Part shown: in pieces, positions 1-16,989 of the stretch
Position numbering within the stretch: the first letter of the stretch is position 1
Layout: the number at the start of each line of letters is the position of its first letter
Assembly (NCBI GenBank): GCA_030619685.1
Contig: JAUXAX010000040.1
Span: 1 to 18,216 of the forward strand
DNA: 18,216 nt
Direction: 5' to 3'
Origin: Dehalococcoidia bacterium
GTDB taxonomy: Bacteria; Chloroflexota; Dehalococcoidia; SZUA-161
Program-made: the position numbers and the translations under genes
Notes under the pieces: model-generated
What the model was told of the DNA's origin: nothing
Databases searched by the model: none
The model's input: the letters and a program-made list of their open reading frames with translations, nothing else

Positions 1-372
1 ATTTAGCAGCGACTCCTTCTCATAGTCGCTGCCTACAAAGATAGAAATGCCCACCGCCGAAACATTCAGTCGGATAGCCTCCTCCATAGAGGTGGTGATG
101 CCTTCATTGGCCAGGTCCTTGCCCACCATGCTGGTGCCTCCGGAGACCCTGAGAATAATCGGTTTGGCTTTGCCAGGGTCTACCGAAGAACGCAATACTC
201 CCCTGGTAATGAAGACCGCGTCGGCATACTGCACAATAGGCTCAAGAGTCTTGCGTGGATTCTCCAGTTTTCTGGTGGGCCCTTGGAAGTATCCATGATC
301 AATCGGCAAGAACAAACAGCGCCCGTCCGATTGAATTAGCTGCGCCATACGGTTCGCCATACCCCATTCCAT
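1..372 (-). CDS. LsrF/DhnA-family class I aldolase-like protein (3' end outside window)
   Basis: Partial gene: 124 codons from the start ATG at 372 run off the left edge. The translation carries IDHGYFQGP (residues 24-32), TRGVLRSSV and SGGTSM, the order and spacing seen in LsrF (autoinducer-2 degradation, 3-hydroxy-5-phosphonooxypentane-2,4-dione thiolase) and in the DhnA/archaeal-type class I aldolases. The family is a cytosolic TIM barrel that cleaves or transfers small phosphorylated keto compounds through a lysine Schiff base; that lysine lies beyond the edge, so activity cannot be judged. The start is set by GGGAGGAG 8 bases upstream. No lsr transport or kinase gene is visible on the side that can be seen, so the AI-2 role is uncertain; a general DhnA-type aldolase is the alternative. 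It is read from its own promoter in the short gap behind the radical SAM gene. Confidence 0.85.
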   Translation of the reverse strand, partial: MEWGMANRMAQLIQSDGRCLFLPIDHGYFQGPTRKLENPRKTLEPIVQYADAVFITRGVLRSSVDPGKAKPIILRVSGGTSMVGKDLANEGITTSMEEAIRLNVSAVGISIFVGSDYEKESLLN

Positions 373-408: not shown

Positions 409-437
409 AGTCTAAGGTAGCAGCTTTGGTTAGTCAA
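409..437 (-). promoter_or_regulatory. Sigma-70-type promoter for the LsrF-like gene
   Basis: On the minus strand TTGACT (432-437) and TAGACT (409-414) are separated by 17 bases. The -35 matches consensus at 5 of 6 positions and the -10 at 4 of 6. It lies about 37 bases upstream of the ATG at 372, and its -35 element begins about 20 bases after the stop of the preceding radical SAM gene, so the aldolase can be transcribed independently of the lexA operon. Confidence 0.5.
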
Positions 438-456: not shown

Positions 457-1416
457 CTAGAGGAGACAGTTACATATAATCTTTTTGTAATCCATACCAA
501 GCCTATTCCAAATGGTGATAGTTTCCTTGCACAGGGCGACATGTGTGTACTCAAACTTATCCTTGAGGTACTGTATGAGTGTATGGTACATAAGGTACCT
601 CGTATCTGAATCGATTCTTTTCCCCCAGTTTGACTTCTCAGAAAGGTAGTCTACCCATGATTTGTCAGTCGCCATGTTGATGGTGCTCTGCAGTCCCCTA
701 AGTGAACCAAGCGTTATCCGAGATGGGATAAACTTTGCGAAGATATGGTCAACCAAGCGCAAGTATTGCTCGCGCCAGTTAAGCACCGGCACCATTGGAT
801 CAATACGAACCCTAACCTCATAGCCCGCTCTACTTAGTTCACTCGCTGCCTCTATGCGATCCACCACAGGGGGGGCAATCTTTTCGAATCTCTTAGCCAC
901 TTCGTCAGCGTTCAGACTAAAGCTGACTACCGCTTGCCCTTGTCCATTTATGTCAAGTAGATGCTCGATATGCCTCGACTTGGTCAGGAAAAGAACTTTG
1001 TGTATCTGTTGTTCCTGAAAGAGCGAGACTATGAATTTGGAAAAGGGATGCCCATTTTTCTCATGCATCAGGGAATCAGCTAGCTCACCGGTATTCAAAA
1101 GCTCACCACGGCCGTTGACATTCTCCAGAAAAGTTCTCACGTGATCTTCGATCTTCTGGTAAGGCTTAACGTAGGGTCGTGATTTTCTGGGTGCGAACCT
1201 CAGGGTACCATTCAAATAGCACCAAGCGCAGGAAAAAGGACATCCAGTAGCCCACTTGAGTTCAAGAAAGTGAGGACAAACTACGTCTGTAGGCTTGGTT
1301 GGGAGGGGGGTTTTCTCAAACCTTGTTATGATAGAACCATCGCCGACCCGTTGAACAAGGTCCTGCTCAGAGCCATCCAGAAGCTGATATTCGCGTCTTC
1401 GAATCCTCATAATCAC
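457..1416 (-). CDS. Spore photoproduct lyase-like radical SAM protein
   Basis: A 319-residue protein of the SPL branch of radical SAM enzymes. Cluster cysteines C59, C63 and C66 form CPFSCAWCYL (CX3CX2C), which would bind a 4Fe-4S cluster and SAM. Other SPL-like blocks are NTGELADSLMHE (108-119), FLTKSRH, FSLNADEV (166-173), VRVRIDPMVP (201-210), RITLGSLRG (233-241), ALCKET (294-299) and a terminal CNCLL. Genuine SPL repairs the spore photoproduct of thymine in DNA using a hydrogen-donor cysteine in the segment matching residues 106-116; here that place reads LNTGE, so the donor appears absent and the substrate is probably different. It starts 21 bases after tcmP, at GTG 1416 or ATG 1410; both have poor Shine-Dalgarno sites, so translational coupling is likely. 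Genes of this type are described in non-spore-formers. Visibly more A+T-rich than lexA. Confidence 0.85.
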   Translation of the reverse strand: MIMRIRRREYQLLDGSEQDLVQRVGDGSIITRFEKTPLPTKPTDVVCPHFLELKWATGCPFSCAWCYLNGTLRFAPRKSRPYVKPYQKIEDHVRTFLENVNGRGELLNTGELADSLMHEKNGHPFSKFIVSLFQEQQIHKVLFLTKSRHIEHLLDINGQGQAVVSFSLNADEVAKRFEKIAPPVVDRIEAASELSRAGYEVRVRIDPMVPVLNWREQYLRLVDHIFAKFIPSRITLGSLRGLQSTINMATDKSWVDYLSEKSNWGKRIDSDTRYLMYHTLIQYLKDKFEYTHVALCKETITIWNRLGMDYKKIICNCLL

Positions 1417-1437
1417 TGCTTTAGCCGTTCACATTAC

Positions 1438-2250
1438 TCAAATCATCCTTAACTGTCCAGTCGATAACCTACGGCTAATTTTACCCCAGAATTCCTCCCC
1501 TCTCGTATGTCTACTTGCAAATACTAGGTGATAAAGTGGCACGCCTTTCGTGTTTTTTACAAGCGTGAAGTCATGCACGCCATAGTAGCCTAAGCCACTG
1601 AGTCTTTTCTTATAAGCATCAAGTAGTGCGCGGCCCATTCTCACTTGGCCTTTAGCTCTCGCACTTTTACATTCAAGCTGCCATTCATCATCACCAAAGA
1701 AATCATTTAGAACATCTGGATGATCGCCCACAACTCTTTTCATGTTACCACTGTGAAAAGTTATAGCAAGATCCATGCTGCGACCCTTCGTAAGCTGGCG
1801 AATGGAGTCGAACTTGATTTCCCAGCTAAGCGGATCAATAAAGCAGAAATCCAATGAAGACGACGGCAAGCTACTTCTTAGATCCTTTATCACCTCATTA
1901 CAGTCTTGGCTGAACAAGGTGATCTTTGTCGATGTAAAAGAGCGGCTACGACTATAAAGGGAATCTATGGCACTACGATCAATGTCATTAAAAAAACAGT
2001 GAGTAAATGGCACTTTGCACCGAAGAGCAACTAGAGGGGACCCGTCAATCTCTTCACCAGTTCCTTCAACCGCGCACTTGCCAGGACCAGCGAAAATGTC
2101 TATAAAAGTGCGCGCAGGCCATTTGCGTTTCATGCCGGAACTGAATATCTCGCAGTATCGCTGAATGTGGAATAATTTCTCTTTTGCCCAAGGCCCGACC
2201 TCAAGCGCAAGATATCCGTTTGAACCTATTAGTAGATCGCCAGTCGGCAT
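1438..2250 (-). CDS. tcmP: Three-Cys-motif partner protein TcmP
   Basis: A 270-residue protein with the TcmP pattern: an amphipathic lead-in (YCEIFSSGMKRKW, 32-44), then TFIDIFAGPG (48-57), GSPLVAL (70-76), FNDIDRS (87-93), DCNEVI (116-121), FIDPLSWEIKF (137-147) and a C-terminal YHLVFASRHTRGEEFW (240-255). DIFAGPG followed by an acidic NDID strand end and FIDP resembles motifs I, II and IV of class I SAM methyltransferases, so a SAM-binding Rossmann fold is inferred. TcmP is named for its pairing with a protein carrying a radical-SAM-like three-cysteine motif; its function is, as far as I know, unestablished. The partner here is the adjacent SPL-like gene. It starts 11 bases after the lexA stop, with AGGTGG 7 bases before the ATG, overlapping the lexA stop, so it is almost certainly cotranscribed with lexA. 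Base composition is clearly A+T-richer than its neighbours, suggesting transfer. Confidence 0.9.
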   Translation of the reverse strand: MPTGDLLIGSNGYLALEVGPWAKEKLFHIQRYCEIFSSGMKRKWPARTFIDIFAGPGKCAVEGTGEEIDGSPLVALRCKVPFTHCFFNDIDRSAIDSLYSRSRSFTSTKITLFSQDCNEVIKDLRSSLPSSSLDFCFIDPLSWEIKFDSIRQLTKGRSMDLAITFHSGNMKRVVGDHPDVLNDFFGDDEWQLECKSARAKGQVRMGRALLDAYKKRLSGLGYYGVHDFTLVKNTKGVPLYHLVFASRHTRGEEFWGKISRRLSTGQLRMI

Positions 2251-2261
2251 TTCAATGCCAC

Positions 2262-2891
2262 CTAGACTTGTCTGATGACTCCGACAACCTTTCCCTGAAC
2301 CTCCACATTGTCCGGGGCAGTGTAGATCGGCTGCATTTCGGAGTTGGCCGGCTGGAGGCGAATGCGGTCACGCTCCCGGTAGAGCTTTTTCAGGGTTGTC
2401 TCCTCCTCCGCCTTGAGCCAGGCAGCAATCATCTCGCCGTCCTCGCCGGTAGCCGCCTGCTGCATCAAGACGATATCACCATCGTTGATTAAGGCATCGA
2501 TCATCGAGGTCCCCTTTACCCTCAGGGCATAAACGTTGTCCTTGCCCTGGATAAGTTCAGTGCTGACCTCAACAGCATCCAGCGGCTCCATTTCCCAGGT
2601 ATCTGACGTTGGCACCGGCATCGGCTCGCCAGCGGCTATGTAGCCGATGACAGGCACCATCACCATGCGCCTTCGCCCCTTGCCAAGGAGTTCGATGCCC
2701 CGCGATACCTCACGGTCGCGGCGGATGTGGCCCTCCCTCTCCAGGACTTTCAGATTGTAGTCCACCACTGAGGTCGAGCTAACGCCACAAGCCTTTAGGA
2801 TGTCCCTGACGGTTGGAGGATAGTCCTTCTCATCGCGGAAGCGGCGCAGGAAGGCGAGGATGCGCCTTTGTTTTGTGGACAGTGTCTTCAT
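2262..2891 (-). CDS. lexA: SOS response repressor LexA
   Basis: A 209-residue protein, the usual LexA length. Residues 1-65 form the winged helix-turn-helix (STKQRRILAFLRRF, YPPTVRDILKACGVSS, VVDYNLKVLEREGHI). The self-cleavage bond is A87-G88 in YIAAGEP, and the catalytic dyad is S129 (GTSMIDALI) with K168 (TTLKKL), so the protein looks fully able to cleave itself when stimulated by RecA on single-stranded DNA. AGAGGTGA lies 4 bases before the ATG. Its own promoter carries an SOS box, indicating autoregulation. The tcmP gene starts 11 bases after the stop codon and the SPL-like gene follows, which puts both inside the LexA transcript. The rpsT gene upstream is separated by a strong hairpin terminator. 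Confidence 0.97.
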   Translation of the reverse strand: MKTLSTKQRRILAFLRRFRDEKDYPPTVRDILKACGVSSTSVVDYNLKVLEREGHIRRDREVSRGIELLGKGRRRMVMVPVIGYIAAGEPMPVPTSDTWEMEPLDAVEVSTELIQGKDNVYALRVKGTSMIDALINDGDIVLMQQAATGEDGEMIAAWLKAEEETTLKKLYRERDRIRLQPANSEMQPIYTAPDNVEVQGKVVGVIRQV

Positions 2892-2900
2892 TTTTCACCT

Positions 2901-2932
2901 CTCAGTATGTTCCGAACGCCTGTTCTACTGAG
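2901..2932 (-). promoter_or_regulatory. SOS box (LexA operator) within a flanking inverted repeat
   Basis: CGAACGCCTGTTCT at 2913-2926 matches the Gram-positive LexA consensus CGAAC-N4-GTTCG at all but the last fixed base. On the minus strand GTTCGGAAC (2909-2917) adds a second, overlapping inverted half-site. A perfect 7-base inverted repeat, CTCAGTA (2901-2907) and TACTGAG (2926-2932), encloses the site. The whole element sits just downstream of the -10, where bound LexA would block the start of transcription. As RNA, the outer repeat could form a hairpin ending next to the lexA Shine-Dalgarno site. Confidence 0.85.
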
Positions 2933-2936
2933 ACAG

Positions 2937-2965
2937 AGCTTATCACGCCAAAAGCCTGCTGTCAA
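2937..2965 (-). promoter_or_regulatory. Promoter of the lexA-tcmP-SPL-like operon
   Basis: On the minus strand a perfect -35 TTGACA (2960-2965) is followed after 17 bases by TAAGCT (2937-2942), a weak -10 matching consensus at 3 of 6 positions. The predicted transcription start is near 2930, inside the SOS box element, and the leader would be about 40 bases long. Confidence 0.6.
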
Positions 2966-5585: not shown

Positions 5586-5613
5586 TTGATATAATTGTAG
5601 GTGTTGTTATACT
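5586..5613 (+). promoter_or_regulatory. Promoter-like sequence before the unknown gene and amidohydrolase
   Basis: TTGATA (5586-5591, 5 of 6) and TATACT (5608-5613, 5 of 6) are 16 bases apart. Transcription would begin near 5620, just inside the reading frame that opens at 5601. If the promoter is real, the true start of the small gene must lie further in, or the promoter mainly serves the amidohydrolase. Confidence 0.45.
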
Positions 5614-6020
5614 ATGCTGGAGGGGCAGAGCGTCTGGAGACACTCAAACTGCTTGTTGTGCTGGAGATAGCGGATAAGTTTGTCGAGCGGGCGATGGCTG
5701 AGTACGCTGAGGTCGGTGAGGTGACTGATAGGATTAAGAGGTATCTCAATCGTGCGGTTGTCTGGCTGGAGCGCGGGGCGGTGCTCAGCGATGCCGGTGA
5801 TATTGACATCAGCTCCAGTATCGGCAAAGCAGTCGAAACTGAGGTGTCTAGAGAAGAGGCGTTAGGTAAACGCCGTTGGCTCAAAGAAGGAGATATACCC
5901 TGGACTGGGGCCAGCATGGAGGCATACGGAAACTGCACTACGGTCAACAGTTACATCGAGACATTGATTTCAAGAATAAGTCTGTGGCCATTGGAGCAGG
6001 GCCGAGTCCAGTGGAGCTAA
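5601..6020 (+). CDS. Hypothetical protein, unrecognised
   Basis: I do not recognise this 139-residue product. It is predicted to be soluble and mostly helical in its first two thirds (LETLKLLVVLEIADKFVERA, RIKRYLNRAVVWLERG), then has a more polar part with SIGKAVETEVSREEALGKRRW and a C-terminal segment of lower coding quality. No signal peptide, membrane segment or metal motif is seen. The amino acid mix looks like a real protein, while the opposite strand in this stretch gives only Ser/Thr-rich frames. The start is doubtful: GTG 5601 and TTG 5604 lack a Shine-Dalgarno site, and a promoter-like -10 overlaps them. The internal GGAGGGG at 5619-5625 has no good in-frame start at proper spacing. 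It ends 26 bases before the amidohydrolase, so the two may be cotranscribed. It could also be a decayed remnant. Confidence 0.5.
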   Translation: MLLYYAGGAERLETLKLLVVLEIADKFVERAMAEYAEVGEVTDRIKRYLNRAVVWLERGAVLSDAGDIDISSSIGKAVETEVSREEALGKRRWLKEGDIPWTGASMEAYGNCTTVNSYIETLISRISLWPLEQGRVQWS

Positions 6021-6046
6021 AGTCTCCACAATATCGCCGGTGAATA

Positions 6047-7597
6047 TTGGGTGCACAAGCAGCAGACCTCGTCCTCTATAATGGCAACATACTGACCATT
6101 GATCCCCAGCAGCCCAGGGCGGAGTTGGTAGCAACAGAAGCGGGGGAAATAGTCTGGGTTGGCTCCAATACCGACCTCGACCTCTTCAAAGAGCGAAAAA
6201 AGCTCATCAACTGTGAGGGCAAAACGGTTATCCCCGGCTTCAACGATGCTCATACCCATGTCCTGGCCTATGCCTCAAGCCTACTCAGTATCAATTGCAG
6301 TCCTGCTTCGGTTGCGTCCATTTCTGATATCCAGGGCAAGATCAGGCAGCAGGCAGAGCGTGTTCCCCAGGGCACCTGGCTGAAAGCTAGCGGCTACAAC
6401 GAGTTCCACCTCAGCGAGCGCCGCCACCCCACCCGCCACGATCTCGACCGAGCGGCACCATATCATCCAGTGAAGCTAACCCATCGCTCCATGCATGCCT
6501 GTGTGCTCAATAGCCTGGCGCTCTCTCTTACCGGCATCTCTATAGAGACCCCAGATCCCCCAGGCGGGCTCATTGACCGTGAACTGGAGACGGGGGAACC
6601 CAGCGGCATCCTCTTCGGCATGAACTCCTATATCAATGAGCAGGTGATGCCCCCCTTGAGCGACGAGGAGCTTAGACAGGGGGTGAGGCTTGCCAATCAG
6701 AGCTTTCTTTCCTCGGGTATCACCTCGATCCAGGACGCTACGGTGAGAAATGGCCTCGAGCAGTGGCAAACCTTTTTCAAGCTCAAAGAGGGGGGAGAGC
6801 TTATCCCCAGGGTCTGCATGATGTTCGGGCTCCACGCTCTCTCCAACCTCAAAGACAGGGGGCTACTGCCCGGCTACGGCGACCATGGACTCAGGTTGGG
6901 CGCGGTCAAGATAGCCCTGGATGAAACAAGAGGGCAGCTCAACCCGTCCCAGGAGGAACTGAATGAAGGAGTTCTTACGGCGCATCAGGATGGCTTTCAG
7001 GTAGCCATACACGCTGTTGAGGAGGGCACTGTGGAGGCAGCGGCTATTGCCCTGGAATACTGCCTGCATCGGTCTCCAAAGGCTGACCATCGCCACCGGT
7101 TAGAGCATTGCTCGGTATGTTCCCCCCCGCTACTGCGCCGATTGCAGGATGTACATGCCGTGGTTGTTACTCAGCCAGGGTTTATTTACTTCAGCGGCGA
7201 GAGATACTTGAACGATGTCCCCGATACACAGTTGCCCTGGCTGTATCGGACGAGGTCTTTCTTGGAGAACGGGCTCAGACCAGCGGGCAGCTCCGATTGT
7301 CCGGTGGCGCCCTGTGACCCACTGGTTGGGGTCTACGCTGCGGTCACGCGCAAGGCTGAGAGCGGGCAAGTCCTCTCTCCAGAGGAAGCTATTTCCCCCG
7401 GCGAGGCGCTCAGGATATATACCCTAAGCGGAGCCTATGCCTCCTTTGAGGAACGCTTAAAAGGAAGCATCGAAATTGGTAAGCTGGCCGACTTGGTGGT
7501 TTTGAGCGCTGACCCCACCAGGGTGCCGCCGGAGGAGATAAAGGAAATTCGGGTGGAGAAGACAATTATTGGTGGCGAGGTTGCGTGGGAACTGTAG
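6047..7597 (+). CDS. Amidohydrolase family protein (YtcJ-like, Amidohydro_3)
   Basis: A 516-residue metal-dependent hydrolase of the YtcJ/Amidohydro_3 group. The N-terminal beta-sandwich starts DLVLYNGNILTIDP, then GKTVIPGFNDAHTHVL carries the first metal ligands H69 and H71. Later blocks are QDATVRNG, VKIALDET, VAIHAVEEGTVEAA (His ligand), HRLEHCSVCSP (His ligand) and AGSSDCPVAPCDPL (Asp ligand), closing with the sandwich segment GSIEIGKLADLVVLSADP. The full set of expected ligands is present, so it should be active. Substrates in this family are varied amides, N-formyl compounds and cyclic ureas and cannot be told from sequence. It is cytosolic, with no signal peptide. TTG 6047 is the only start possible: an in-frame TGA lies at 6041 and GGTGA just precedes it. 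Its stop is 4 bases from the convergent yggT stop. Confidence 0.92.
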   Translation: MGAQAADLVLYNGNILTIDPQQPRAELVATEAGEIVWVGSNTDLDLFKERKKLINCEGKTVIPGFNDAHTHVLAYASSLLSINCSPASVASISDIQGKIRQQAERVPQGTWLKASGYNEFHLSERRHPTRHDLDRAAPYHPVKLTHRSMHACVLNSLALSLTGISIETPDPPGGLIDRELETGEPSGILFGMNSYINEQVMPPLSDEELRQGVRLANQSFLSSGITSIQDATVRNGLEQWQTFFKLKEGGELIPRVCMMFGLHALSNLKDRGLLPGYGDHGLRLGAVKIALDETRGQLNPSQEELNEGVLTAHQDGFQVAIHAVEEGTVEAAAIALEYCLHRSPKADHRHRLEHCSVCSPPLLRRLQDVHAVVVTQPGFIYFSGERYLNDVPDTQLPWLYRTRSFLENGLRPAGSSDCPVAPCDPLVGVYAAVTRKAESGQVLSPEEAISPGEALRIYTLSGAYASFEERLKGSIEIGKLADLVVLSADPTRVPPEEIKEIRVEKTIIGGEVAWEL

Positions 7598-7601
7598 ACC
7601 T

Positions 7602-7868
7602 CTAGGAAAGAGCTTGAATGAGCACCCGGCCAATGATCTGCAGCACGATGATAGCCACTATCGGTGATATATCGAACATGCCTATCGTGGGGATGATTCT
7701 ACGTAGCGGCCCCAGAATAGGCTCAGTTACCTGAAAAAGTACCTGATAGAGGCTAACAACGAAGCCGCTTGTGGGATTGACCATAAACCAGGATAGGACA
7801 ACCCTGGCGAATATGGCGATGGTGATCACCTGTATGATGTAGTAGATAAGCACGGCTGCGGTACTCAT
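7602..7868 (-). CDS. yggT: YggT family membrane protein
   Basis: An 88-residue integral membrane protein with two predicted membrane segments: residues 5-28 (VLIYYIIQVITIAIFARVVL) and 66-87 (SPIVAIIVLQIIGRVLIQAL). Between them lie the family signatures FARVVLSWFMVNP, VTEPILGPLRRIIP and FDISPIVA. YggT proteins are of uncertain role, linked in other bacteria to osmotic tolerance and, in the ylm cluster and plastids, to division and membrane organisation. The start ATG overlaps the proC stop by 4 bases (ATGA) and has a strong GGAGGTGA 9 bases upstream. Its place next to yggS is conserved in many bacteria. It is the last gene of the minus-strand series. Confidence 0.93.
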   Translation of the reverse strand: MSTAAVLIYYIIQVITIAIFARVVLSWFMVNPTSGFVVSLYQVLFQVTEPILGPLRRIIPTIGMFDISPIVAIIVLQIIGRVLIQALS

Positions 7869-8677
7869 TTGCCGCTCTCACCTCCAAGAAGCTTTGCTTT
7901 CTCGTAAGCAGCGATGACCGCCTGGGCTATGAGGGCTCGCACCCCTCCCTCCTCCAGGCAAAGAAGACCCTCAGCGGTAGTCCCTCCCGGTGAGGTAACC
8001 GAATTCTTCAGTTCCGCCGGGTGTTTGCCGGACTCCTTGGTCATATGCGCAGAGCCCAGCACAGTTTGCGTTACCAGCTCCCCTGCCAGCTCCCTAGGCA
8101 GCCCGATCTGCACCGCGGCGTCGATGAGCGCCTCTATGATCAGGAAGATATAGGCAGGGCCGCTGCCGCTTATCGCCGTAGCCATGTCGATATACTTCTC
8201 ATCAGAAAAGTATATCTCCTTGCCCATCGCCCTCAGGATAGTCTGCACCATTTCCTTCTGCTTCTGGCTCACTGCAGCGGTGGAGGTCCATACGCTCATC
8301 CCCTCTCCAACCTGTGCTGGTGTATTGGGCATCACCCGCACAACCTTGTCATGTCCCAGCCCTTTTCTGATGGTGTCAATTCTGGCCCCGGCGACGATAG
8401 AGAGCACCAGTTGTTCATCCTTTAGCTCGCCCTTGAGGTCTTTCATCACCGCGGCCAGTGTCTGAGGCTTGATCGAGAGCACGATGACCTCGCGATCAAG
8501 GACCGCTCTGTGAATATCTCGGGCGCAATTGACCTTGTATTTTTCCCCTATGTGGGTAAGGCGAGCTTGATCGACGTCGCAGGCAAAAACCGTATCGTGG
8601 CTGGTTGCTCCTTGCCTGAGAAGGGCTGAAATCATAGCCTCACCCATAACCCCGGCCCCAATAAAGGCGATCCTCAT
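7865..8677 (-). CDS. proC: Pyrroline-5-carboxylate reductase
   Basis: A 270-residue enzyme that reduces 1-pyrroline-5-carboxylate to L-proline with NAD(P)H, the last step of proline synthesis. The Rossmann motif is GAGVMG (7-12). Family blocks are SIKPQ (68-72), [14 protein letters not shown] (113-126), [15 protein letters not shown] (170-184) and the ProC signature [20 protein letters not shown] (219-238). Length and motifs are complete. GAGGAGAAAA lies just before the ATG. It starts 10 bases after yggS and overlaps yggT by 4 bases, so all three are probably translated from one mRNA. proC between yggS and yggT is a common arrangement. Confidence 0.97.
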
Positions 8678-8687
8678 CGTTTTCTCC

Positions 8688-9356
8688 TCAAGCTCGTCTT
8701 CTCTCGCCGAAAATCGCTCGACCGATCCTCACCAGCGTAGCTCCCTCCTCAATGGCGACCTCGAAGTCATCGGTCATCCCCATAGAGAGATGCCTGAGCC
8801 CCAGAGCATCCCCAAGTTGCCGCAACCGACGAAAGACAGGCCGCACCTCCTCGGCATCGCTCACCCAGGGAGCGATGGTCATCAGCCCCTCGATTTCGAG
8901 ATTAGGCAACCTCCCGATACGCTTGACTGCCTCATCGACCTCAGGCAACGTGAAGCCGCTTTTGGTTGCCTCAGCGGCAACGTTGACCTCGATGAGAACA
9001 GGCAACCTCTTCTGACTGCGCCTGCTCAGGGCTTCCGCTAGCCTGAGCGAATCAACGCTATGGATTATATCAAAAAAGTCCACCGCTGTCTTGGCCTTGT
9101 TGGTTTGAAGGTGTCCCACCATGTGCCAGGTTAAGTGAGCCCTCAAGCTCGCAAGCTGCTCGATCTTGGGTCTAGCCTCCTGAACCCTGTTCTCGCCGAA
9201 GTTCCTGATGCCGGCGTGGAAGGCAGCCTCGATCGCGGGGACCTCTATGGTCTTGGTCACGACGACCAGGGTCACCTCATCCGGCGACCGCCCCACCCGC
9301 TCACAAGCCCCGGCGATGCGCCGTTGCAACTCTTGTACGTTATGCTCAATGTCCAT
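8688..9356 (-). CDS. yggS: YggS/PLPBP family pyridoxal phosphate homeostasis protein
   Basis: A 222-residue single-domain PLP-binding protein with an alanine-racemase-like barrel. The PLP lysine is K35 in VVVTKT. Other family motifs are [67 protein letters not shown] and the phosphate-binding region [23 protein letters not shown]. Known members bind PLP without a clear catalytic activity and buffer vitamin B6 and amino or keto acid pools. In this copy the usual MSxD is MTDD. ATG 9356 lies 3 bases after the radical SAM stop, with GGAG about 11 bases before, so coupling is likely. Confidence 0.96.
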
Positions 9357-9359
9357 GCT

Positions 9360-11000
9360 TTAGCATACTCCGCACTTATAGCAGTTTTTTGGTGGACAGG
9401 GAGGGGTCTCAGCACCCCGCCGAGCTTTCTCTAGCTCCTCCCCGAGATAATCACAGGTAATGCCGGAATCCACTACCGACCAGGGCAGCGGCTCATCAAG
9501 GGGCAATTCCCGATGTGCGTAGAAGTCGGCGCTGAGATCACGTTCCTCCAGCGCCCGGTGCCACGCGGCAAGAGAGTACCCCGACATACTGGCCAGAGCT
9601 GCGCCCAGCCTGACATCGCCTCGTGATAGCACCCCCTGGACCAGGCTCCAACCCACGCTCTCGGCCCTGACCTCGATGCCGCTTTTGGCAAGGCCATTCT
9701 TGATTCGCTTCGTGCGACGTTGAAGAATGTCCTTGGGGGCCATTGCCAGCCATTGGAAAGGGGTGCCCGCTTTGGGCACAAAAGGCTCTACGGTAAGGGC
9801 GATACGGCATCCTGTCCTCTCGATGCGATCCTTCAGCTTGAGGGTCAGTTTGATGATCTCCTCGATGTCATCGTCGCACTCCGTTGGCAGGCCAATCATA
9901 AAGTAGAGCTTGACCTGCCTCAGCCCCTGCTCTGCAACATTGTCAACCGCCTCGATGATATCGCTCTCCGTTATGCCCTTGTTGATAAGCTGGCGCAATC
10001 TCTCGGAGCCTGCCTCAGGGGCCAGGGATACGGTTTGGGTGCCGCTTTCCCCAAGACCACGAAGGACTCTCTTGGATAAGGGGCGAATTCGTAGCGAGCT
10101 GACCGATATCTCGGCACCCATTTGCCGCAGCCGCGAGACAAGCTCATCTATCTCGGGGTGGTCTGAGACGGCCGCCGCTAGAAGCCCCATCCTCTTGCCA
10201 TACCTAAGGCCCTTCTCGGCCTGGGCCAGCAAGCTCCCCAGAGAGCGGAAGCGAAACGGCCTAAACCAAAACCCGGCGAGGCAGAAGCGGCAGCCCCAGC
10301 CACAGCCGCGTGCGATCTCAATGAGGTACATATCGCTGAGGTCGGTATCCGGAGTCAGAACAACCGAGGTGGTAGCTACAGAGTCGAGGTCAGCCAGCCA
10401 CTGCCGGCTAACAGGATCGCCATCGTATAGCGCGGGGACATAGACTCCAGGCACTGAAGCCAGTTCCTTGAGCAGCTCGTCCTTTTTGTCTTGAAGACCA
10501 TTGGTCAAGACTTCAATAAAGCTGGGCAGTATAGCCTCCCCTTCCCCGATGGCAAAGCAGTCGAAGAAGAGAGAAAGGGGTTCGGGGTTGGCAGTGACGC
10601 TGGAGCCGCCGGCGATTACCAGGGGATGGCTTTCGTTGCGGTCAGCAGCGAAGAGAGGGATGCCGCCAGCTTTGAGGATTTGAACTACATTGAAATAATC
10701 CAGTTCGTAGGAGATGGAGAAGGCGAGGACGTCGAAATCGGGAAGAGGCCGCTGCGATTCCAGGCTGATGGGTTCTTCAGCCCTATGTATTCTTGGTTCC
10801 CACAGAATCCGCTCACAGACTATGTTTTCGTAGCTGTTGAGAAACCCATAGATGGTCTGAAAACCGAGGCTGGACATCCCCAGGTAGTAAGAGTTGGGGT
10901 AGATGAGGGCAATGGGCGTTCTCCCTCCCCAGTCCTTGTACACAGTGCCCTTCTCTTTTTCGAGCCTTTGCCTGGCCTCTTTGATCGTTTTCCATGTCAT
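9360..11000 (-). CDS. B12-binding-type radical SAM protein (TIGR03960-like)
   Basis: A 546-residue protein. Residues about 30-165 form a cobalamin-binding-like Rossmann domain (LPDFDVLAFSISYELDYFNV, IPLFAAD, PLVIAGGSSVTANPEPLSLF, CFAIGEGE), but the DxHxxG base-off motif is not seen. The radical SAM core follows, with C233, C237 and C240 in RGCGWGCRFC, then VSLAPEAGSERLRQLINKGI and VKLYFMIGLPTE. It most resembles the unnamed TIGR03960 family, often fused to or next to a DUF2344 protein; no DUF2344 is present here. The C-terminus ends in a second cysteine cluster (C535, C540, C543, C546; CPPKNCYKCGVC), possibly an auxiliary Fe-S or zinc site. The start ATG lies 15 bases after the nrdJ stop with a weak Shine-Dalgarno site. 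Substrate unknown; a role in RNA or ribosome maturation is only a guess. Confidence 0.85.
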   Translation of the reverse strand: MTWKTIKEARQRLEKEKGTVYKDWGGRTPIALIYPNSYYLGMSSLGFQTIYGFLNSYENIVCERILWEPRIHRAEEPISLESQRPLPDFDVLAFSISYELDYFNVVQILKAGGIPLFAADRNESHPLVIAGGSSVTANPEPLSLFFDCFAIGEGEAILPSFIEVLTNGLQDKKDELLKELASVPGVYVPALYDGDPVSRQWLADLDSVATTSVVLTPDTDLSDMYLIEIARGCGWGCRFCLAGFWFRPFRFRSLGSLLAQAEKGLRYGKRMGLLAAAVSDHPEIDELVSRLRQMGAEISVSSLRIRPLSKRVLRGLGESGTQTVSLAPEAGSERLRQLINKGITESDIIEAVDNVAEQGLRQVKLYFMIGLPTECDDDIEEIIKLTLKLKDRIERTGCRIALTVEPFVPKAGTPFQWLAMAPKDILQRRTKRIKNGLAKSGIEVRAESVGWSLVQGVLSRGDVRLGAALASMSGYSLAAWHRALEERDLSADFYAHRELPLDEPLPWSVVDSGITCDYLGEELEKARRGAETPPCPPKNCYKCGVC

Positions 11001-11015
11001 GAACTGTTCACATTG

Positions 11016-13610
11016 CTAACACTTGGTATAGCCGCAGGCCTGGCAGATGAAGCAGCCCTCCTGGAAAATGAGCAGGCCGCCGCAGTCGGGACATTGCCCC
11101 GCCGTATTCTTGACCCCACCACCACCCTTGGTCTTGGCTTTGATTTTGGCTTCATGGCTGGCTTTGTGCTCAACATCAGCACCACTGTTACTTTGGTGCC
11201 TCTCCAGAACGCCAGCAATGGCATCAGGGCAGGAGAGGATAGCATGGCCCCTGTCCCAGGCAATTGAGGGGCACCTGATTCCTCTCAGGTGCTTGATGAT
11301 CGATTCCACCTCTACCCCTGACCTCAGTGCCAGGGAGATCAGCCTGGTGATAGCCTCAAGTTGCGCCGAGGCACAGCCTCCTGACTTCCCTAAGGCACAG
11401 AACACCTCGCACAACCTACCCTCCTCATCGTAGTTCACCGTTGTATAGAGGTTTCCGCAGCCGGTGGCGACTTTCTCGGTGACTCCTGCAGTAGTGATCG
11501 GCCGTTCCCTGGGGACTCGTCTGGCCTCCTTCTCCTCGACTAGCTCATCTGTGTCAATGCTCAGCACCTGGCTGTCGCGGCTCCTATCCCTGTAGATCGT
11601 TATGCCTTTGCAGCCCTCCTTGTAGGCCATTATGTAGACCCGGGCTACGTCCTCCCTGGTTGCATCGTGAGGGAAATTGACAGTCTTGGATACGGCGTTA
11701 TCGGTGTGCTTCTGAAATGCCGCCTGCATCCTGACATGCCACTCAGGGGTAATGTCGTGGGAGGTGACGAATAACTTCTTAACCTTTTCCGGGATACCCT
11801 CTATATCGCGTAGATTCCCTTGTTTAGCCACCCCTTGCTTTAGCTCTTCAGAGTAGAATCCCTCCCTCTTCGCTACCTCCTCAAACAGGGGGTTTACCTC
11901 CGCTAGCTGTGTACCCTCCAGTATAGTGCGTGTATAGCTCAGGGCGAACAGGGGCTCAATGCCGCTGGAACAGCCAGCGATTATGCTCAGGGTGCCGGTG
12001 GGGGCGATGGTGGTCCTGGTAGCATTTCTAACCCCGGGACCGTCGGGCTTGTCATAAACGCTGCCCTTAAAGGCAGGAAACACGCCCCTCTCCTCGGTAA
12101 GCTCTTTGGATACCTCCATAGACTCCTTGCTTATAAACTTCATCAGGTCCTCAGCAGTCTTAAGCGCTTCCTGTGAATCATAGGGTATCCCCAACAGGAT
12201 AAGGAGGTCGGCGAAACCCATCACCCCGAGGCCGATCTTCCTGGTGGCCTTGGTCATCTCGTCTATCTTAGGTAGGGGGAATTTGTTGACATCTATTACG
12301 TTGTCGAGGAACCTGACAGCCATTCTCACCGTCTTCCTGAGCTTATCCTCGTCGATCTCGAACTTACCGTTTCTCTCATGGACCATCTTGGACAGGTTGA
12401 TCGATCCCAGGTTGCACGACTCGTAGGGCAGAAGGGGTTGTTCGCCGCAGGGATTGGTGCTCTCCACACTTCCCAGCTTTGGAGTCGGGTTATCCCTGTT
12501 CACCCGGTCGAGGAACACAATGCCCGGGTCTCCATTCCTCCATGCCATATCAACTATGCGGTCGAACACCTCTTTGGCGTTGAGCTTGCCCACCACCTTC
12601 TTGGTGCGGGGATTCACTAGCTCGTAGTCACCGCTGCTCTCCACCGCCTTCATGAACTCCTCGATCACTGCCACCGATATGTTAAAGTTGGTAAGGGAGG
12701 TGTAGTCCTCTTTGGACGTGATGAAGTTCACTATGTCGGGATGGTCAACGTTCAGGATTGCCATGTTGGCCCCCCGCCGCTTGCCCCCCTGCTTGATGAC
12801 GTCGGTGGCGGCATCGAAGGCTCGCATAAACGAGACCGGGCCGCTGGCTACTCCTCCGGTGGAGCCCACCGTGTCACCCTCAGGGCGCAGTCGGGAGAAA
12901 GAGAAACCGGTGCCGCCCCCGCTCTTATGTATCAGAGCGGTGTGCTTCACGGAATCGAAAATAGAGTCCATGGAGTCCTCGATAGGCAGCACGAAACAGG
13001 CCGAAAGCTGCCCCAGCTCGCGGCCAGCGTTCATCAGCGTTGGTGAGTTGGGCAAAAACTCGAGATTCGCCATCATCTGATAGAACTCCTCTTCCCTGGC
13101 TTCGATGTCGGCTTTGGGGTTGTAGAGCGAGTCCGCCGCGGCGATGTGATGGGCCACGCGGTGAAACATGTCCTCAGCGCTCTCGATCACCTGACCCTTG
13201 TCGTTCTTTACCAGGTACCTTCTCTCCAGGACTGCCCTGGCATTCGGCGATACTTCGGCCTTGGACTTCTCGGTTTTCTTGCTTTTGACCTTGGTTCTCA
13301 GAATAGCGGGCTGCTCCTCCTTCTCCACAAGTGGCAGAAACGCTTCAGGACCCCTCTGGGCAAGGATATTTCTCGCAATCGACCTGATCTCTGTCTCGTG
13401 AACAGGCCTTCTTATCTCGGGGGCGAGATGCTCCAAACCAGGCAGGGTGGGGACGCGATCCAGGCGCTCCATAACCTGGTCGGCGAGTCCCTCGATCATC
13501 TCCCTGTCCGATATGCCCATGGACTCGGCAGAAGCGAAAATCGCGCGAGCAACTCTGTTGCGCAATGAGCGCTCGACTTTACTATTCTTTCGATTATTAC
13601 CGCTACTCAT
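11016..13610 (-). CDS. nrdJ: Adenosylcobalamin-dependent (class II) ribonucleoside-diphosphate reductase
   Basis: Reduces ribonucleotides to deoxyribonucleotides using a radical from adenosylcobalamin, with no oxygen requirement and no NrdB subunit. 864 residues from ATG 13610, chosen because AAGGTG stands 6 bases before it; a GTG 3 codons earlier overlaps that site. The first ~120 residues are a helical, charged extension. The catalytic barrel holds FLPNSPTLMNAG, QLSACFVLP (first active-site Cys, residue 205), HKSGGGTGFSFSRLRP, STNPCGEQPLLPYESCNLGS (radical Cys 388, Glu 390) and ATRTTIAPTGTLS. A TSCPD-type domain follows (VATGCGNLYTTVNYDEEGR ... GGCASAQLEA), then a Lys/Gly linker and a zinc ribbon (CPDCGG ... 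CQACGYTKC) whose last cysteines probably shuttle electrons. It lies 38 bases after nrdR with no promoter or NrdR box in the gap, so it is under the nrdR promoter. Confidence 0.97.
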   Translation of the reverse strand: MSSGNNRKNSKVERSLRNRVARAIFASAESMGISDREMIEGLADQVMERLDRVPTLPGLEHLAPEIRRPVHETEIRSIARNILAQRGPEAFLPLVEKEEQPAILRTKVKSKKTEKSKAEVSPNARAVLERRYLVKNDKGQVIESAEDMFHRVAHHIAAADSLYNPKADIEAREEEFYQMMANLEFLPNSPTLMNAGRELGQLSACFVLPIEDSMDSIFDSVKHTALIHKSGGGTGFSFSRLRPEGDTVGSTGGVASGPVSFMRAFDAATDVIKQGGKRRGANMAILNVDHPDIVNFITSKEDYTSLTNFNISVAVIEEFMKAVESSGDYELVNPRTKKVVGKLNAKEVFDRIVDMAWRNGDPGIVFLDRVNRDNPTPKLGSVESTNPCGEQPLLPYESCNLGSINLSKMVHERNGKFEIDEDKLRKTVRMAVRFLDNVIDVNKFPLPKIDEMTKATRKIGLGVMGFADLLILLGIPYDSQEALKTAEDLMKFISKESMEVSKELTEERGVFPAFKGSVYDKPDGPGVRNATRTTIAPTGTLSIIAGCSSGIEPLFALSYTRTILEGTQLAEVNPLFEEVAKREGFYSEELKQGVAKQGNLRDIEGIPEKVKKLFVTSHDITPEWHVRMQAAFQKHTDNAVSKTVNFPHDATREDVARVYIMAYKEGCKGITIYRDRSRDSQVLSIDTDELVEEKEARRVPRERPITTAGVTEKVATGCGNLYTTVNYDEEGRLCEVFCALGKSGGCASAQLEAITRLISLALRSGVEVESIIKHLRGIRCPSIAWDRGHAILSCPDAIAGVLERHQSNSGADVEHKASHEAKIKAKTKGGGGVKNTAGQCPDCGGLLIFQEGCFICQACGYTKC

Positions 13611-13648
13611 AGCTCTCACCTTGTCATTGATATCACTCTAGCTGATAA

Positions 13649-14185
13649 CTATCGGTGCTTAGACGAGGCAGCTCTCTCCTTTCTGCCCAAGGAATCAAGC
13701 GCTTCCTTGGGAATAAGGGGCAACTGGCTTGAAGGATAGCTGCTGGCGATGAGGGTGTCCACCTCCTGCTTGAGGCTGGTGATATCGGCGAAATCGCGGT
13801 AGACGCTGGCGAAGCGAATATAGGCAATGTGGTCCAGCTCCTTTAGCCTGTCCATCACTATCTCACCTACCACCGAGCTTGGGACCTCTGCCTTGCCCAA
13901 TTGGAGCAGCTCGGTTTCAATGTCATCCACTAGCTTCTCCACCGTTCCCGTGGGAAGGGGGCGCTTTTCACAGGCCTTGCGAATGCCGGTGGCCAGCTTA
14001 TCGTGGCTGAACGCCTCACGGCGCAGGTCCTTTTTGATGATAACGAGGTTGCCGGTCTGGACCCTCTCGTGGGTGGTGAACCTGAATCCGCAGGCGAGGC
14101 ACTGACGACGGCGGCGGACGCTGTCATCGACAGTACGGGAGTCGGTTACCTTGGAATCTTCGTGACCGCAATGAGGACACTTCAT
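13649..14185 (-). CDS. nrdR: Transcriptional repressor NrdR
   Basis: A 178-residue repressor of ribonucleotide reductase genes that senses ATP/dATP. The N-terminal zinc ribbon is MKCPHCGHEDSKVTDSR and CLACGFRFTTHE (C3, C6, C29, C32), followed by the RRRR stretch and an ATP-cone (about 47-140: VIIKKDLRREAFSHDKL, ACEKRPLP, YIRFASVYRDF). Start ATG 14185 is chosen over upstream in-frame codons because it gives the invariant MKCP start and has GAGGT 7 bases before it. The C-terminus runs about 20-25 residues beyond the usual length, in a Ser/Pro/Lys-rich tail. Two NrdR boxes overlap its promoter, so it represses itself and the nrdJ gene behind it. Confidence 0.97.
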   Translation of the reverse strand: MKCPHCGHEDSKVTDSRTVDDSVRRRRQCLACGFRFTTHERVQTGNLVIIKKDLRREAFSHDKLATGIRKACEKRPLPTGTVEKLVDDIETELLQLGKAEVPSSVVGEIVMDRLKELDHIAYIRFASVYRDFADITSLKQEVDTLIASSYPSSQLPLIPKEALDSLGRKERAASSKHR

Positions 14186-14203
14186 CGCCGAGACCTCGCC
14201 AAT

Positions 14204-14244
14204 CAATATATTGTGGCGGAAGCATAGATTATCACAATATATTG
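14204..14244 (-). promoter_or_regulatory. Pair of NrdR boxes
   Basis: The perfect palindrome CAATATATTG occurs twice, at 14204-14213 and 14235-14244, exactly 31 bases apart (three helical turns). Both core and spacing match the NrdR-box pair known upstream of ribonucleotide reductase genes. The distal box lies between the -35 and -10 of the nrdR promoter and the proximal one lies in the leader, so binding would block transcription of nrdR and nrdJ. Confidence 0.9.
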
Positions 14245-14254
14245 ATATTGTCAA
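14226..14254 (-). promoter_or_regulatory. Promoter of nrdR-nrdJ
   Basis: On the minus strand a perfect -35 TTGACA (14249-14254) precedes two overlapping -10 candidates: TAATCT (14226-14231) at 17-base spacing, or GATAAT (14228-14233) at 15 bases preceded by TGT as an extended -10. It lies in the gap after secF, so the nrd genes can be transcribed separately from secDF. Confidence 0.7.
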
Positions 14255-14308
14255 GGTGTTTTGGCTGGCTTTTGGGCCTATCAGGCAACCTTTTGCGCAA
14301 GCTGGCGC

Positions 14309-15475
14309 TTAGTCTTGCTCGCGGCGTAGCGGTATCCAGCTGAACAACCGTCCCAGTTCTCCCCGCTCCCATGAAACCACTAGCTGGCTGCTGATGAAAA
14401 GGGAGCTATAAGTGCCCACGATGACGCCAATGGTCAGTGCCAGGACGAAGTTGCTGATAGTTGCTCCGCCGAAGAGTAAGAGGGCAATGAGGACGAACAA
14501 TGTGGTCAGGCTGGTATTAAGTGATCTTGCCACGGTCTCATTGAGGCTGACATTGACGACGGAGGCGAAATCTGCGCTGATGTCCCGTCTCCTGTTCTCT
14601 CGAATGCGGTCGAAGACTACTATAGTATTGTTCACGCTGTAGCCAATGACGGTCAGCAATGCGATGATGAACATCGAGTTAATTTCCAGACTGAACAGGG
14701 AGAAGACTCCCAGAACTATCAGCGCGTCGTGCACCAGGGCCACGATGGCGCACGCCCCATAGCTGATAGGACGGGTCAGCCTGCGGAAGGCCCAGGTGAT
14801 ATAGAGCAGAATTCCCACTGCTGCCGCGATCACGGCATAGGTCGTATATTGGACGCGCTCGCTGGCAACCTCAGGAGAGATTGAATAGACGTCAAGGGAA
14901 TCTATCTCGCCAAACGCCTCCTCCAACGCTTGCTCAATCTCATCCTGCTCATCTGTATCTAGTGTCTCAGTTCTTATCAGGAAGGAATCGAGGGTAGTGC
15001 TCTCGATATTGCCCCAGGAATACCCCAAATCATCCAGTCTATCGCTCAAGTCGCCTTGATCCACCGTTTTCCCAAATATAAGAGCGAGTGTAGTATTTCC
15101 CACCGGGCTGGCAGCATTTCCCATCGAGGCGAATTCGGCTATCCTGATCGTTGTGTCAAACTCTGCCTGCAGGCCCTCGGCTAGCCGATCTTTTTCCCTC
15201 CCTCTTTCCTTGGGATCCAGTGGTAGTTCCAAGTCCAGGAGAAAGGCGTCTTTAGCGCCGTGCTGGATGCTGGCATTGGAGTGGTCAAGGGAGGTGAACA
15301 TATCTCTCAGGGCCCCTTCTCCCACCTCGTCCTTGAAGACCAGGGTCATGGTGGTGCCGCTGCTGAACTCAATCCCCAGATTGAGCCCGGATGCTATCAG
15401 AGAGATGATGCCGACTAGGATCACCAGCCCCGATACCAGGAAGAACCATTTTCTTCTGCTTACAAAGTCAAACAA
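14309..15475 (-). CDS. secF: Protein translocase subunit SecF
   Basis: 388-residue membrane protein of the SecDF complex, which uses ion gradient energy to help the SecYEG channel release exported proteins. It has one N-terminal membrane segment (10-31), the signature GIEFSSGT (34-41, usually GIDFTGGT), a large external domain to about residue 200, then five membrane segments with TVIGYSVNNTIVVFDRIREN and the SLNTSLTTLFV motif. The start is TTG 15475, placed immediately after the secD TAG, with AAGGAG 9-10 bases upstream inside the secD end; the ORF cannot extend further. Stop-to-start adjacency indicates coupled translation with secD. The external domain is unusually Asp/Glu- and Thr-rich, but the length fits the family range. 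Confidence 0.96.
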   Translation of the reverse strand: MFDFVSRRKWFFLVSGLVILVGIISLIASGLNLGIEFSSGTTMTLVFKDEVGEGALRDMFTSLDHSNASIQHGAKDAFLLDLELPLDPKERGREKDRLAEGLQAEFDTTIRIAEFASMGNAASPVGNTTLALIFGKTVDQGDLSDRLDDLGYSWGNIESTTLDSFLIRTETLDTDEQDEIEQALEEAFGEIDSLDVYSISPEVASERVQYTTYAVIAAAVGILLYITWAFRRLTRPISYGACAIVALVHDALIVLGVFSLFSLEINSMFIIALLTVIGYSVNNTIVVFDRIRENRRRDISADFASVVNVSLNETVARSLNTSLTTLFVLIALLLFGGATISNFVLALTIGVIVGTYSSLFISSQLVVSWERGELGRLFSWIPLRREQD

Positions 15476-16900: not shown

Positions 16901-16920
16901 TGCTAAAATCCTCTAGGGAT

Positions 16921-16970
16921 TTCCCCTCTAAATCCCCCTCCCCTTAATCCCCTCCCGCCAGGGGAGGGGA
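16921..16970. repeat. C/T-rich stretch with G+C palindrome, possible dispersed repeat
   Basis: The 89-base gap between the CCA-adding enzyme gene and secD holds repeated AATCCCC-type units and a perfect 9-base inverted repeat, TCCCCTCCC (16948-16956) and GGGAGGGGA (16962-16970), with a 5-base loop. There is no T-run on either strand, so it is not a typical terminator. Such C/T-rich palindromes often occur as dispersed intergenic repeats; only one copy is in this window. Confidence 0.6.
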
Positions 16971-16989
16971 ACTACAAGGAATTCTGCGA

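Follow-up and report, generated by a model that had tools for sequence, protein, structure and literature searches.

A tcmP and SPL-like radical SAM gene cassette downstream of lexA in Dehalococcoidia, a possible SOS-coupled modification or defense pair

Introduction

TcmP proteins take their name solely from their partner, and we found no function for them in the open-access literature that we searched. Their usual neighbor is a DUF5131 protein (phage Gp37/Gp68), a three-cysteine protein resembling radical S-adenosylmethionine (SAM) enzymes, and these TcmP-DUF5131 pairs, which keep company with restriction and phage genes, are listed in PADLOC as the candidate systems PDC-M30 and PDC-M41. Here we analyze an 18,216-nucleotide stretch of DNA from a Dehalococcoidia bacterium (contig JAUXAX010000040.1 of assembly GCA_030619685.1), referred to below as the window, in which a tcmP gene lies between lexA and a gene similar to that of spore photoproduct lyase (SPL). 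The TcmP of the window belongs to the same family as those of the DUF5131 pairs and likewise stands beside a three-cysteine radical-SAM-like protein. It differs from them in that its partner is SPL-like (CxxxCxxC) and both genes belong to the predicted transcript of lexA.

Three other described systems invite comparison. In lexA-imuB-dnaE2 operons, the genes behind lexA share its repression; the passengers in the window, by contrast, are neither polymerases nor known repair proteins. SplB shares with the SPL-like protein of the window the radical SAM core and fold and the Pfam SPL domain, from which the window protein departs in falling far below the equivalog cutoff, in having Glu at the position of Cys140, in an invariant C-terminal CxC, and in its TcmP partner. 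The third comparison is with Mycobacterium tuberculosis, where, according to excerpts of the respective papers, Rv2735c is cotranscribed with recA-recX (PMC3062782) and Rv2735c, recA, recX, and Rv2734 fall in one cluster differentially expressed after mitomycin C (PMC5057432). Excerpts likewise indicate that BCG_2748c, numbered beside recX (BCG_2749c), has a TcmP domain (PMC7387457); its position suggests that BCG_2748c is Rv2735c. The excerpt of a further paper names rv2735c in a STRING list only (PMC10609372). As far as these excerpts go, the mycobacterial case resembles the window in having a TcmP-domain protein cotranscribed with a core damage response gene; it differs in that the gene is recA rather than lexA and the phylum is another one. 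The open-access literature matches listed, as excerpted, contained no description of tcmP behind lexA.

Results

A predicted lexA-tcmP-SPL operon behind a conserved SOS box

The lexA, tcmP, and SPL-like radical SAM genes are co-oriented on the minus strand of the window, with one promoter ahead of lexA (Table 1). An SOS (LexA) box lies 11 bases past the -10 element and 22 bases before the lexA start. Gaps of 11 bases (lexA-tcmP) and 21 bases (tcmP-SPL) separate the genes; the SPL-like open reading frame (ORF) opens with GTG, and homologs favor an ATG 6 bases further in, which would widen the second gap to 27 bases. The three proteins match LexA (TIGR00498, 175 bits; cutoff, 111), TcmP (NCBIfam TIGR04474, 156 bits; cutoff, 53; covering positions 1 to 258 of the 263 of the model), and PF20903 (87 bits; cutoff, 27). 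A preliminary description of this DNA had given the same layout and coordinates, and these proved correct. It had also stated that no terminator or promoter separates the genes, and a promoter and terminator scan listed none on the minus strand from lexA to the SPL-like gene. The lexA promoter, whose -10 match is too poor, was missed by the same scan, so its identification rests on conservation. With this arrangement, the sequence supports the claim that tcmP and the SPL-like gene are very likely coexpressed with lexA under the SOS box.

The box, GAACGCCTGTTC, is the sole exact GAAC-N4-GTTC in the window. When one mismatch was allowed, the window contained 9 sites, against a mean of 5.5 in shuffled sequences, with 26 of 200 shuffles reaching 9. 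Because near-matches are not clearly above chance, the box of the window is weak evidence when taken alone. We therefore turn to conservation in a set of 31 lexA genes (the window and the 30 best matches among the 327 genomes with a match), searched from 150 bases before to 90 bases after the ORF start. An exact box with an upstream TTGACA was present at 29 of the 31, compared with a background of 0.005 per 240 bases; in the other two (G255, which is a close relative, and G040), the box is one base off. This conservation behind TTGACA, together with the occurrence of the box ahead of dinB, makes the box of the window credible. A search of ten relatives with the combined promoter-plus-box pattern gave 23 matches, versus 26 for a reversed control pattern, so only the positions of the matches are informative: 16 of them precede lexA (8), dinB (4), or a gene for a 183-residue protein (4), and 7 precede none of these. 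The dinB of G255 was confirmed by family search; the other three we take to be dinB from inspection of their sequences.

The LexA of the window aligns with solved LexA over the Ala-Gly cleavage site and over the Ser and Lys of the S24 peptidase, which we take to be the catalytic residues. The locus thus combines a promoter LexA box with an apparently cleavable LexA, as judged from sequence alone, and lexA very probably encodes an SOS repressor that controls its own gene and few others.

The protein of 180 to 183 residues just mentioned has its own TTGACA promoter and exact LexA box in G075, G174, G142, and G105 (L171, L173, L181, and L183). Its family was not recognized, and a resemblance to Rad52 was rejected, as neither Pfam nor NCBIfam supports it; its gene is likely an SOS gene. 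Similar promoter-plus-box sequences without a convincing ORF behind them occur in G142 (L172) and G119 (L187).

The cassette is absent from close relatives

The tcmP-SPL stretch, with GC contents of 0.45 and 0.47, compared with 0.58 for lexA and 0.56 for positions 5600 to 18216 of the window, looks foreign in origin. In G142, tcmP and the SPL-like gene lie between the lexA stop codon and a convergent gene, presumably for an alcohol dehydrogenase. The corresponding position in G075, whose DNA is 93.8% and 92.9% identical on the two flanks, holds 6 bases. Right at the stop codon of lexA, G075 thus has a cleanly unoccupied site.

Among the 9 genomes examined from the closest family of the window, 2 have an SPL match at an E value of 1e-60. 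The window DNA matches that of G097 up to the lexA stop codon and resumes at the start of the aldolase gene, which stands directly 3' of lexA in G097, G211, G112, G189, and G220; in G066, lexA is followed by the first bases of the aldolase gene, where the contig ends. Ahead of the aldolase gene, the empty-site relatives G066 and G097 carry a promoter-like sequence similar to that of the window, and the latter marks the right border of the cassette.

The cassette recurs at lexA, with a sister group elsewhere

The survey covered 393 genomes of the class, a subset of a larger group. An SPL-like match at an E value of 1e-30 was found in 19 of these, 9 with more than 500 bits, and 3 of the 9 share a contig with a lexA sequence. 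G142 has the order lexA-tcmP-SPL. In G105, lexA is followed by a DNA methylase fragment, a gene without an assigned family, an MvaI/BcnI-type fragment, and the SPL-like gene. The third genome, G001, has two relevant contigs: C104 starts with the LexA C terminus and continues with a frame-broken tcmP, the SPL-like gene, and a fucA-like gene, and C82 has lexA followed after 11 bases by tcmP. G056 shows lexA and then tcmP at a contig end. These additional lexA-tcmP and lexA-tcmP-SPL arrangements in G142, G001, and G056 indicate that the placement in the window is not a one-off. A phylum-wide search returned 2 of 400, both already found, and no further locus.

Two more of the nine high-scoring SPL-like genes would be placed at lexA from indirect evidence. 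One G255 contig stops 78 bases past lexA and another opens with a tcmP tail followed by the SPL-like gene and the same aldolase gene, so that the contig ends are consistent with a lexA position. G174 has a tcmP tail, the SPL-like gene, and genes that we take by eye to be yebC and ruvC; lexA was not found in G174, and its placement is inferred from a yebC-like gene 3' of lexA in G090, a genome of the same order. Counting the window, six SPL-like genes are thus assigned to lexA, four directly. Their products form one clade (support, 98/99). Across the lexA loci, the left neighbor is constantly lexA and the right neighbor varies (aldolase, alcohol dehydrogenase, fucA, or yebC, with those other than the aldolase named by eye), from which we conclude that the regulated flank is the one retained.

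A sister group of SPL-TcmP pairs (G112, G282, G159, G200, G745, G748, L001, and L002) lies away from lexA in the stretches examined; it includes the remaining four of the nine high-scoring genomes, G112, G159, G282, and G200. There the SPL-like gene precedes mtnP in L001, L002, G112, and G159 and lies about 2.3 kb from mtnP in G282. The SPL proteins from the mtn side group with those of G200, G745, and G748, with weaker support (83/68). Identities are 65 to 87% within the lexA clade and 57 to 64% to the mtn-side proteins compared, and LexA identities run parallel to them. Because the sister group occurs elsewhere, with no box found ahead of it where this was examined, the pair is not intrinsically bound to SOS and does not depend on SOS control.

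The mtn neighborhoods have features of their own. Genes resembling mtnA lie upstream of the sister SPL gene in L002 and L129, and a large restriction-methylase-type gene (identified by family search in L002) is interposed in both L001 and L002. Family searches confirmed the IF-2B/mtnA-like protein and the methylthioadenosine (MTA) phosphorylase, MtnP, in L002; mtnP and mtnA elsewhere are presumed by eye or by likeness. The sister group (L001, L002, L129, and L133; G002, G003, G112, and G159) may be connected with the salvage of 5'-deoxyadenosine or MTA.

The SPL lineage is constant and TcmP varies

The full-length TcmPs at lexA (the window, G001 contig C82, and G142) do not form a clade (approximately unbiased test, P = 3e-34). 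The tree omits the frame-broken tcmP of G001 contig C104 and the fragments of G056, G255, and G174, which we typed instead by short matches of 32 to 82 residues: the G174 tail is of the window type, the G056 protein is of the larger type of G200 and G282, and those of G255 and G001 contig C104 are of the type of G021. Contigs C82 and C104 of G001 (L121 and L127) share a near-identical lexA 3' end that is followed by different TcmP types; they resemble alternative alleles of a single locus within a population, or the bin may be mixed. The radical SAM partner thus appears to be the constant part of the pair. The simplest history suggested by the sequences is an old link between SPL and lexA, with many losses and repeated replacement of TcmP; alternatively, the cassette may have been transferred between lexA loci.

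Predicted properties of the two proteins

The predicted structure of TcmP has the fold of a nucleic acid methyltransferase: it is predicted to be a class I SAM methyltransferase fold whose closest structures are Trm1 and RlmJ, and its best structural neighbors are mostly RNA methyltransferases (Trm1, RlmJ, Trm5, and Hen1). TcmP differs from RlmJ and Trm1 in sequence, with identities of 10 to 14%, and its motif IV reads DPxxW or DPFG, not the DPPY that we take to be motif IV of RlmJ. A sequence search of solved structures with TcmP gave nothing meaningful.

The SPL-like protein contains the radical SAM motif C59xxxC63xxC66 and an SPL fold, as well as an invariant C296 and C315xC317. The preliminary description had proposed a repair or modification pair. 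A repair role is not supported: the protein scores 93.3 bits against a cutoff of 400 for the spore photoproduct lyase equivalog TIGR04070, and in a profile alignment to 4fhg (a C140S structure) the position of Cys140, presumably the hydrogen donor of spore photoproduct lyase, is occupied by Glu111, which is invariant in 26 sequences. By the same two results, the protein does not qualify as a spore photoproduct lyase.

TcmP partners and their neighborhoods

The pairing of TcmP with three-cysteine radical-SAM-like proteins, noted in the preliminary description, proved common in our tally of TcmP neighbors. Its 96 entries comprised 56 with DUF5131, 27 with an SPL-like gene (3 of them also with lexA), 3 with lexA alone, 4 at a contig edge, and 6 with none of these. 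The tally omits the duplicate loci L043, L073, L111, and L121 and still counts some places twice, the three entries with lexA only and the three with lexA plus SPL representing two places each. In addition, 16 of 120 TcmPs listed from the protein catalog have a longest contig of the same size as one of 120 listed SPL-like proteins, compared with a mean of 2.7 for jittered lengths. The cassette of the window has its three-cysteine partner in the SPL-like gene and lacks the commoner DUF5131. In PADLOC, its TcmP matches the A components PDC-M41A (73 bits) and PDC-M30A (43 bits), for which no cutoff is given. The B components, PDC-M30B and PDC-M41B, match a DUF5131 protein, and the cassette contains no such component.

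SPL-like genes, with or without tcmP, lie near Eco57I/type IIG-like enzymes in L002, G282, and G745 and near a DNA methylase and a ParB-like gene in G309. In Sinorhizobium meliloti, TcmP follows the Hna defense gene, a large ORF taken as Hna by the gene order in the paper. No relative of the TcmP of the window was confirmed in viral contigs, and the SPL-like protein had no match among 50,697 phage records; plasmids gave partial, distant SPL-like matches only, in 9 records. Viral contigs contain SPL-like genes at 9 loci, and at four of these a more distant TcmP is adjacent. In three viral contigs (L034, L035, and L036), two distinct SPL-like genes are arranged in tandem and a tcmP gene converges with them.

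Other switches of the damage response or of lysogeny also have TcmP genes nearby. Near the integrase gene of Gordonia phage PantheRoc (L194, 2553-5709), the genes for TcmP (gp41) and DUF5131 (gp40) are convergent, and the former shares 4 bases with the end of the gene for the immunity repressor. In G138 (L142, 806-12001), about 1.9 kb containing a GTPase gene separates a DUF5131-TcmP pair from the lexA, imuB-like, and dnaE-like genes downstream. These last genes have the order of the lexA-imuB-dnaE2 operons; the imuB-like gene was confirmed by family search (Pfam IMS), and the dnaE-like gene is presumably dnaE2, judged from its first residues. The DUF5131-TcmP pair of G138 itself stands behind a type III restriction subunit-like gene.

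TABLE 1 Features at the lexA end of the 18,216-nucleotide window
Feature	Coordinates	Strand	Evidence
lexA promoter, TTGACA (2965-2960), 17-base spacer, TAAGCT (2942-2937)	2937..2965	-	Read from sequence; TTGACA also at other lexA loci with exact box
SOS (LexA) box GAAC-N4-GTTC, GAACGCCTGTTC	2914..2925		Exact match; kept in 29/31 lexA loci
lexA, 209 aa	2262..2891	-	LexA family match and alignment to solved LexA
tcmP, 270 aa, low GC; fold predicted as class I SAM methyltransferase	1438..2250	-	Family match, predicted fold, GC
SPL-like radical SAM gene, at most 319 aa	457..1416	-	PF20903 match; cysteine motifs
Promoter-like site of aldolase gene, TTGACT-17-TAGACT	409..437	-	Promoter/terminator scan and relatives
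DeoC/LacD-family aldolase, cut by window end	1..372	-	Family (profile) match; directly 3' of lexA in cassette-free relatives

Discussion

An accessory cassette of tcmP and an SPL-like gene, inserted at the lexA stop codon and sharing the LexA-repressed promoter, would account for what the sequences show: the gene order, a conserved LexA box, relatives with an empty site, repeated occurrence at lexA, and varied tcmP types beside one SPL lineage. We tentatively read the cassette as an SOS-coupled, partner-swapped variant of a candidate modification or defense pair, a proposal to which we give slightly less than an even chance. In undamaged cells, LexA would keep the lexA-tcmP-SPL transcript low. 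Upon DNA damage, RecA-stimulated self-cleavage of LexA would let lexA, tcmP, and the SPL-like gene rise together, and the promoter and box suggest that the cassette is probably switched on in this way. Judging from folds and neighbors, TcmP may select or methylate a nucleic acid target on which the SPL-like enzyme, standing in for the DUF5131 of the candidate antiphage pairs, generates a 5'-deoxyadenosyl radical. The pair would then tag or attack nucleic acid that is foreign or damaged while the SOS alarm is on, and exchange of TcmP would amount to exchange of target specificity, as in restriction-modification. The preliminary description had the pair acting on damaged or modified nucleic acid upon SOS induction; the coexpression with lexA is supported, and a repair role is not.

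Several observations weigh against this proposal. Exact LexA boxes were absent from recA in all 10 relatives (117 bases were examined in G142), which appears unusual for an SOS system and suggests that the SOS regulon of this lineage is small or unusual. No LexA box was found ahead of SPL-TcmP genes away from lexA in 14 stretches covering 8 loci (G159 excluded), and most relatives are fragmented assemblies, with G255 and G174 assigned to lexA by inference. Within the class, lexA was within 1.5 kb at only 2 of 30 TcmP loci examined, so that the lexA association belongs to the SPL-paired TcmPs; in other phyla, the stretches examined around 30 TcmP loci lacked both lexA and recA, and 2 of them contained a dinB-like gene. 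Regarding defense, PDC-M30 and PDC-M41 are candidate systems rather than proven ones, and the SPL-like protein, whose structure model is moderate (pLDDT, 67), matched neither PADLOC nor DUF5131. Family scans reported no nuclease domain in the LexA, TcmP, or SPL-like proteins, and the cassette therefore lacks the nuclease of a restriction-modification system; in G105, the MvaI/BcnI-type fragment occupies the corresponding place.

Some of these points would fit a promoterless cassette that hitchhikes in host operons, such as those of lexA and the mtnA/mtnP region, with an SOS link that has no functional meaning. Each SPL clade would then keep its locus because it is moved by recombination between homologous flanks. 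The sister group near mtnP, without an SOS box where tested, is as expected for such a cassette, as are the alternation of presence and absence in close relatives and the parallel SPL and LexA identities. We nevertheless consider it somewhat unlikely that hitchhiking explains the locus, because lexA is always the left neighbor while the right one changes, and because TcmP relatives also stand behind the mycobacterial recA-recX (as excerpted in the papers cited above) and the Gordonia phage immunity repressor. The preliminary description had held that finding the pair away from lexA with its own promoters in related genomes, or finding no induction by DNA damage, would make the SOS link an accident of insertion; the sister group, located elsewhere and with no SOS box ahead of it where this was examined, bears out half of this. 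The pair might instead be dedicated to DNA repair, the SPL-like enzyme reversing a lesion by radical chemistry with TcmP assisting. The shared SPL domain and the SOS box invite this idea, which the distant equivalog score and the invariant Glu111 render improbable; the names of the metagenome-assembled genomes also suggest lake depths rather than sunlit places. Since TcmP is exchanged beside a steady SPL lineage, and since restriction-modification and phage genes are among its neighbors elsewhere, neither of which is expected of a repair enzyme, modification or defense fits better than repair. Finally, TcmP could act on tRNA or rRNA in the manner of RlmJ, Trm1, or Hen1, with the radical SAM partner adding a second modification under stress, for RNA modification or repair. 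The predominance of RNA methyltransferases among its structural neighbors speaks for such a role, to which the sequence distance from RlmJ and Trm1 and the differing motif IV may be opposed, and we regard it as a long shot. Peptide modification was set aside, as no precursor-like gene was evident between the genes, where no systematic search was made.

In its broadest form, the proposed SOS-coupled modification or defense pair would mean that lexA here controls an SOS-triggered nucleic acid modification defense with a constant radical SAM effector and an exchangeable TcmP specificity unit. LexA would then have such chemistry under its control for the first time, and the locus would exemplify a broader tendency of TcmP pairs to lie behind damage or lysogeny switches (lexA, recA-recX, and a phage repressor). 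We consider this full version unlikely to hold in all its parts, and it would have clear consequences. Were TcmP transcripts in unrelated lineages linked to LexA, RecA, or prophage repressors, the signal that induces them would be known and their function could be tested. A LexA-controlled pair of a radical SAM enzyme and a methyltransferase would, if real, link SOS signaling to a chemistry that, to our knowledge, does not occur in any proven defense system.

Additional observation

At the far end of the window (positions 16990 to 18215), two ORFs that by eye appear to belong to a single tRNA nucleotidyltransferase/HD protein adjoin at 17787 but are read in different frames, which would fit a frame-broken or split gene.

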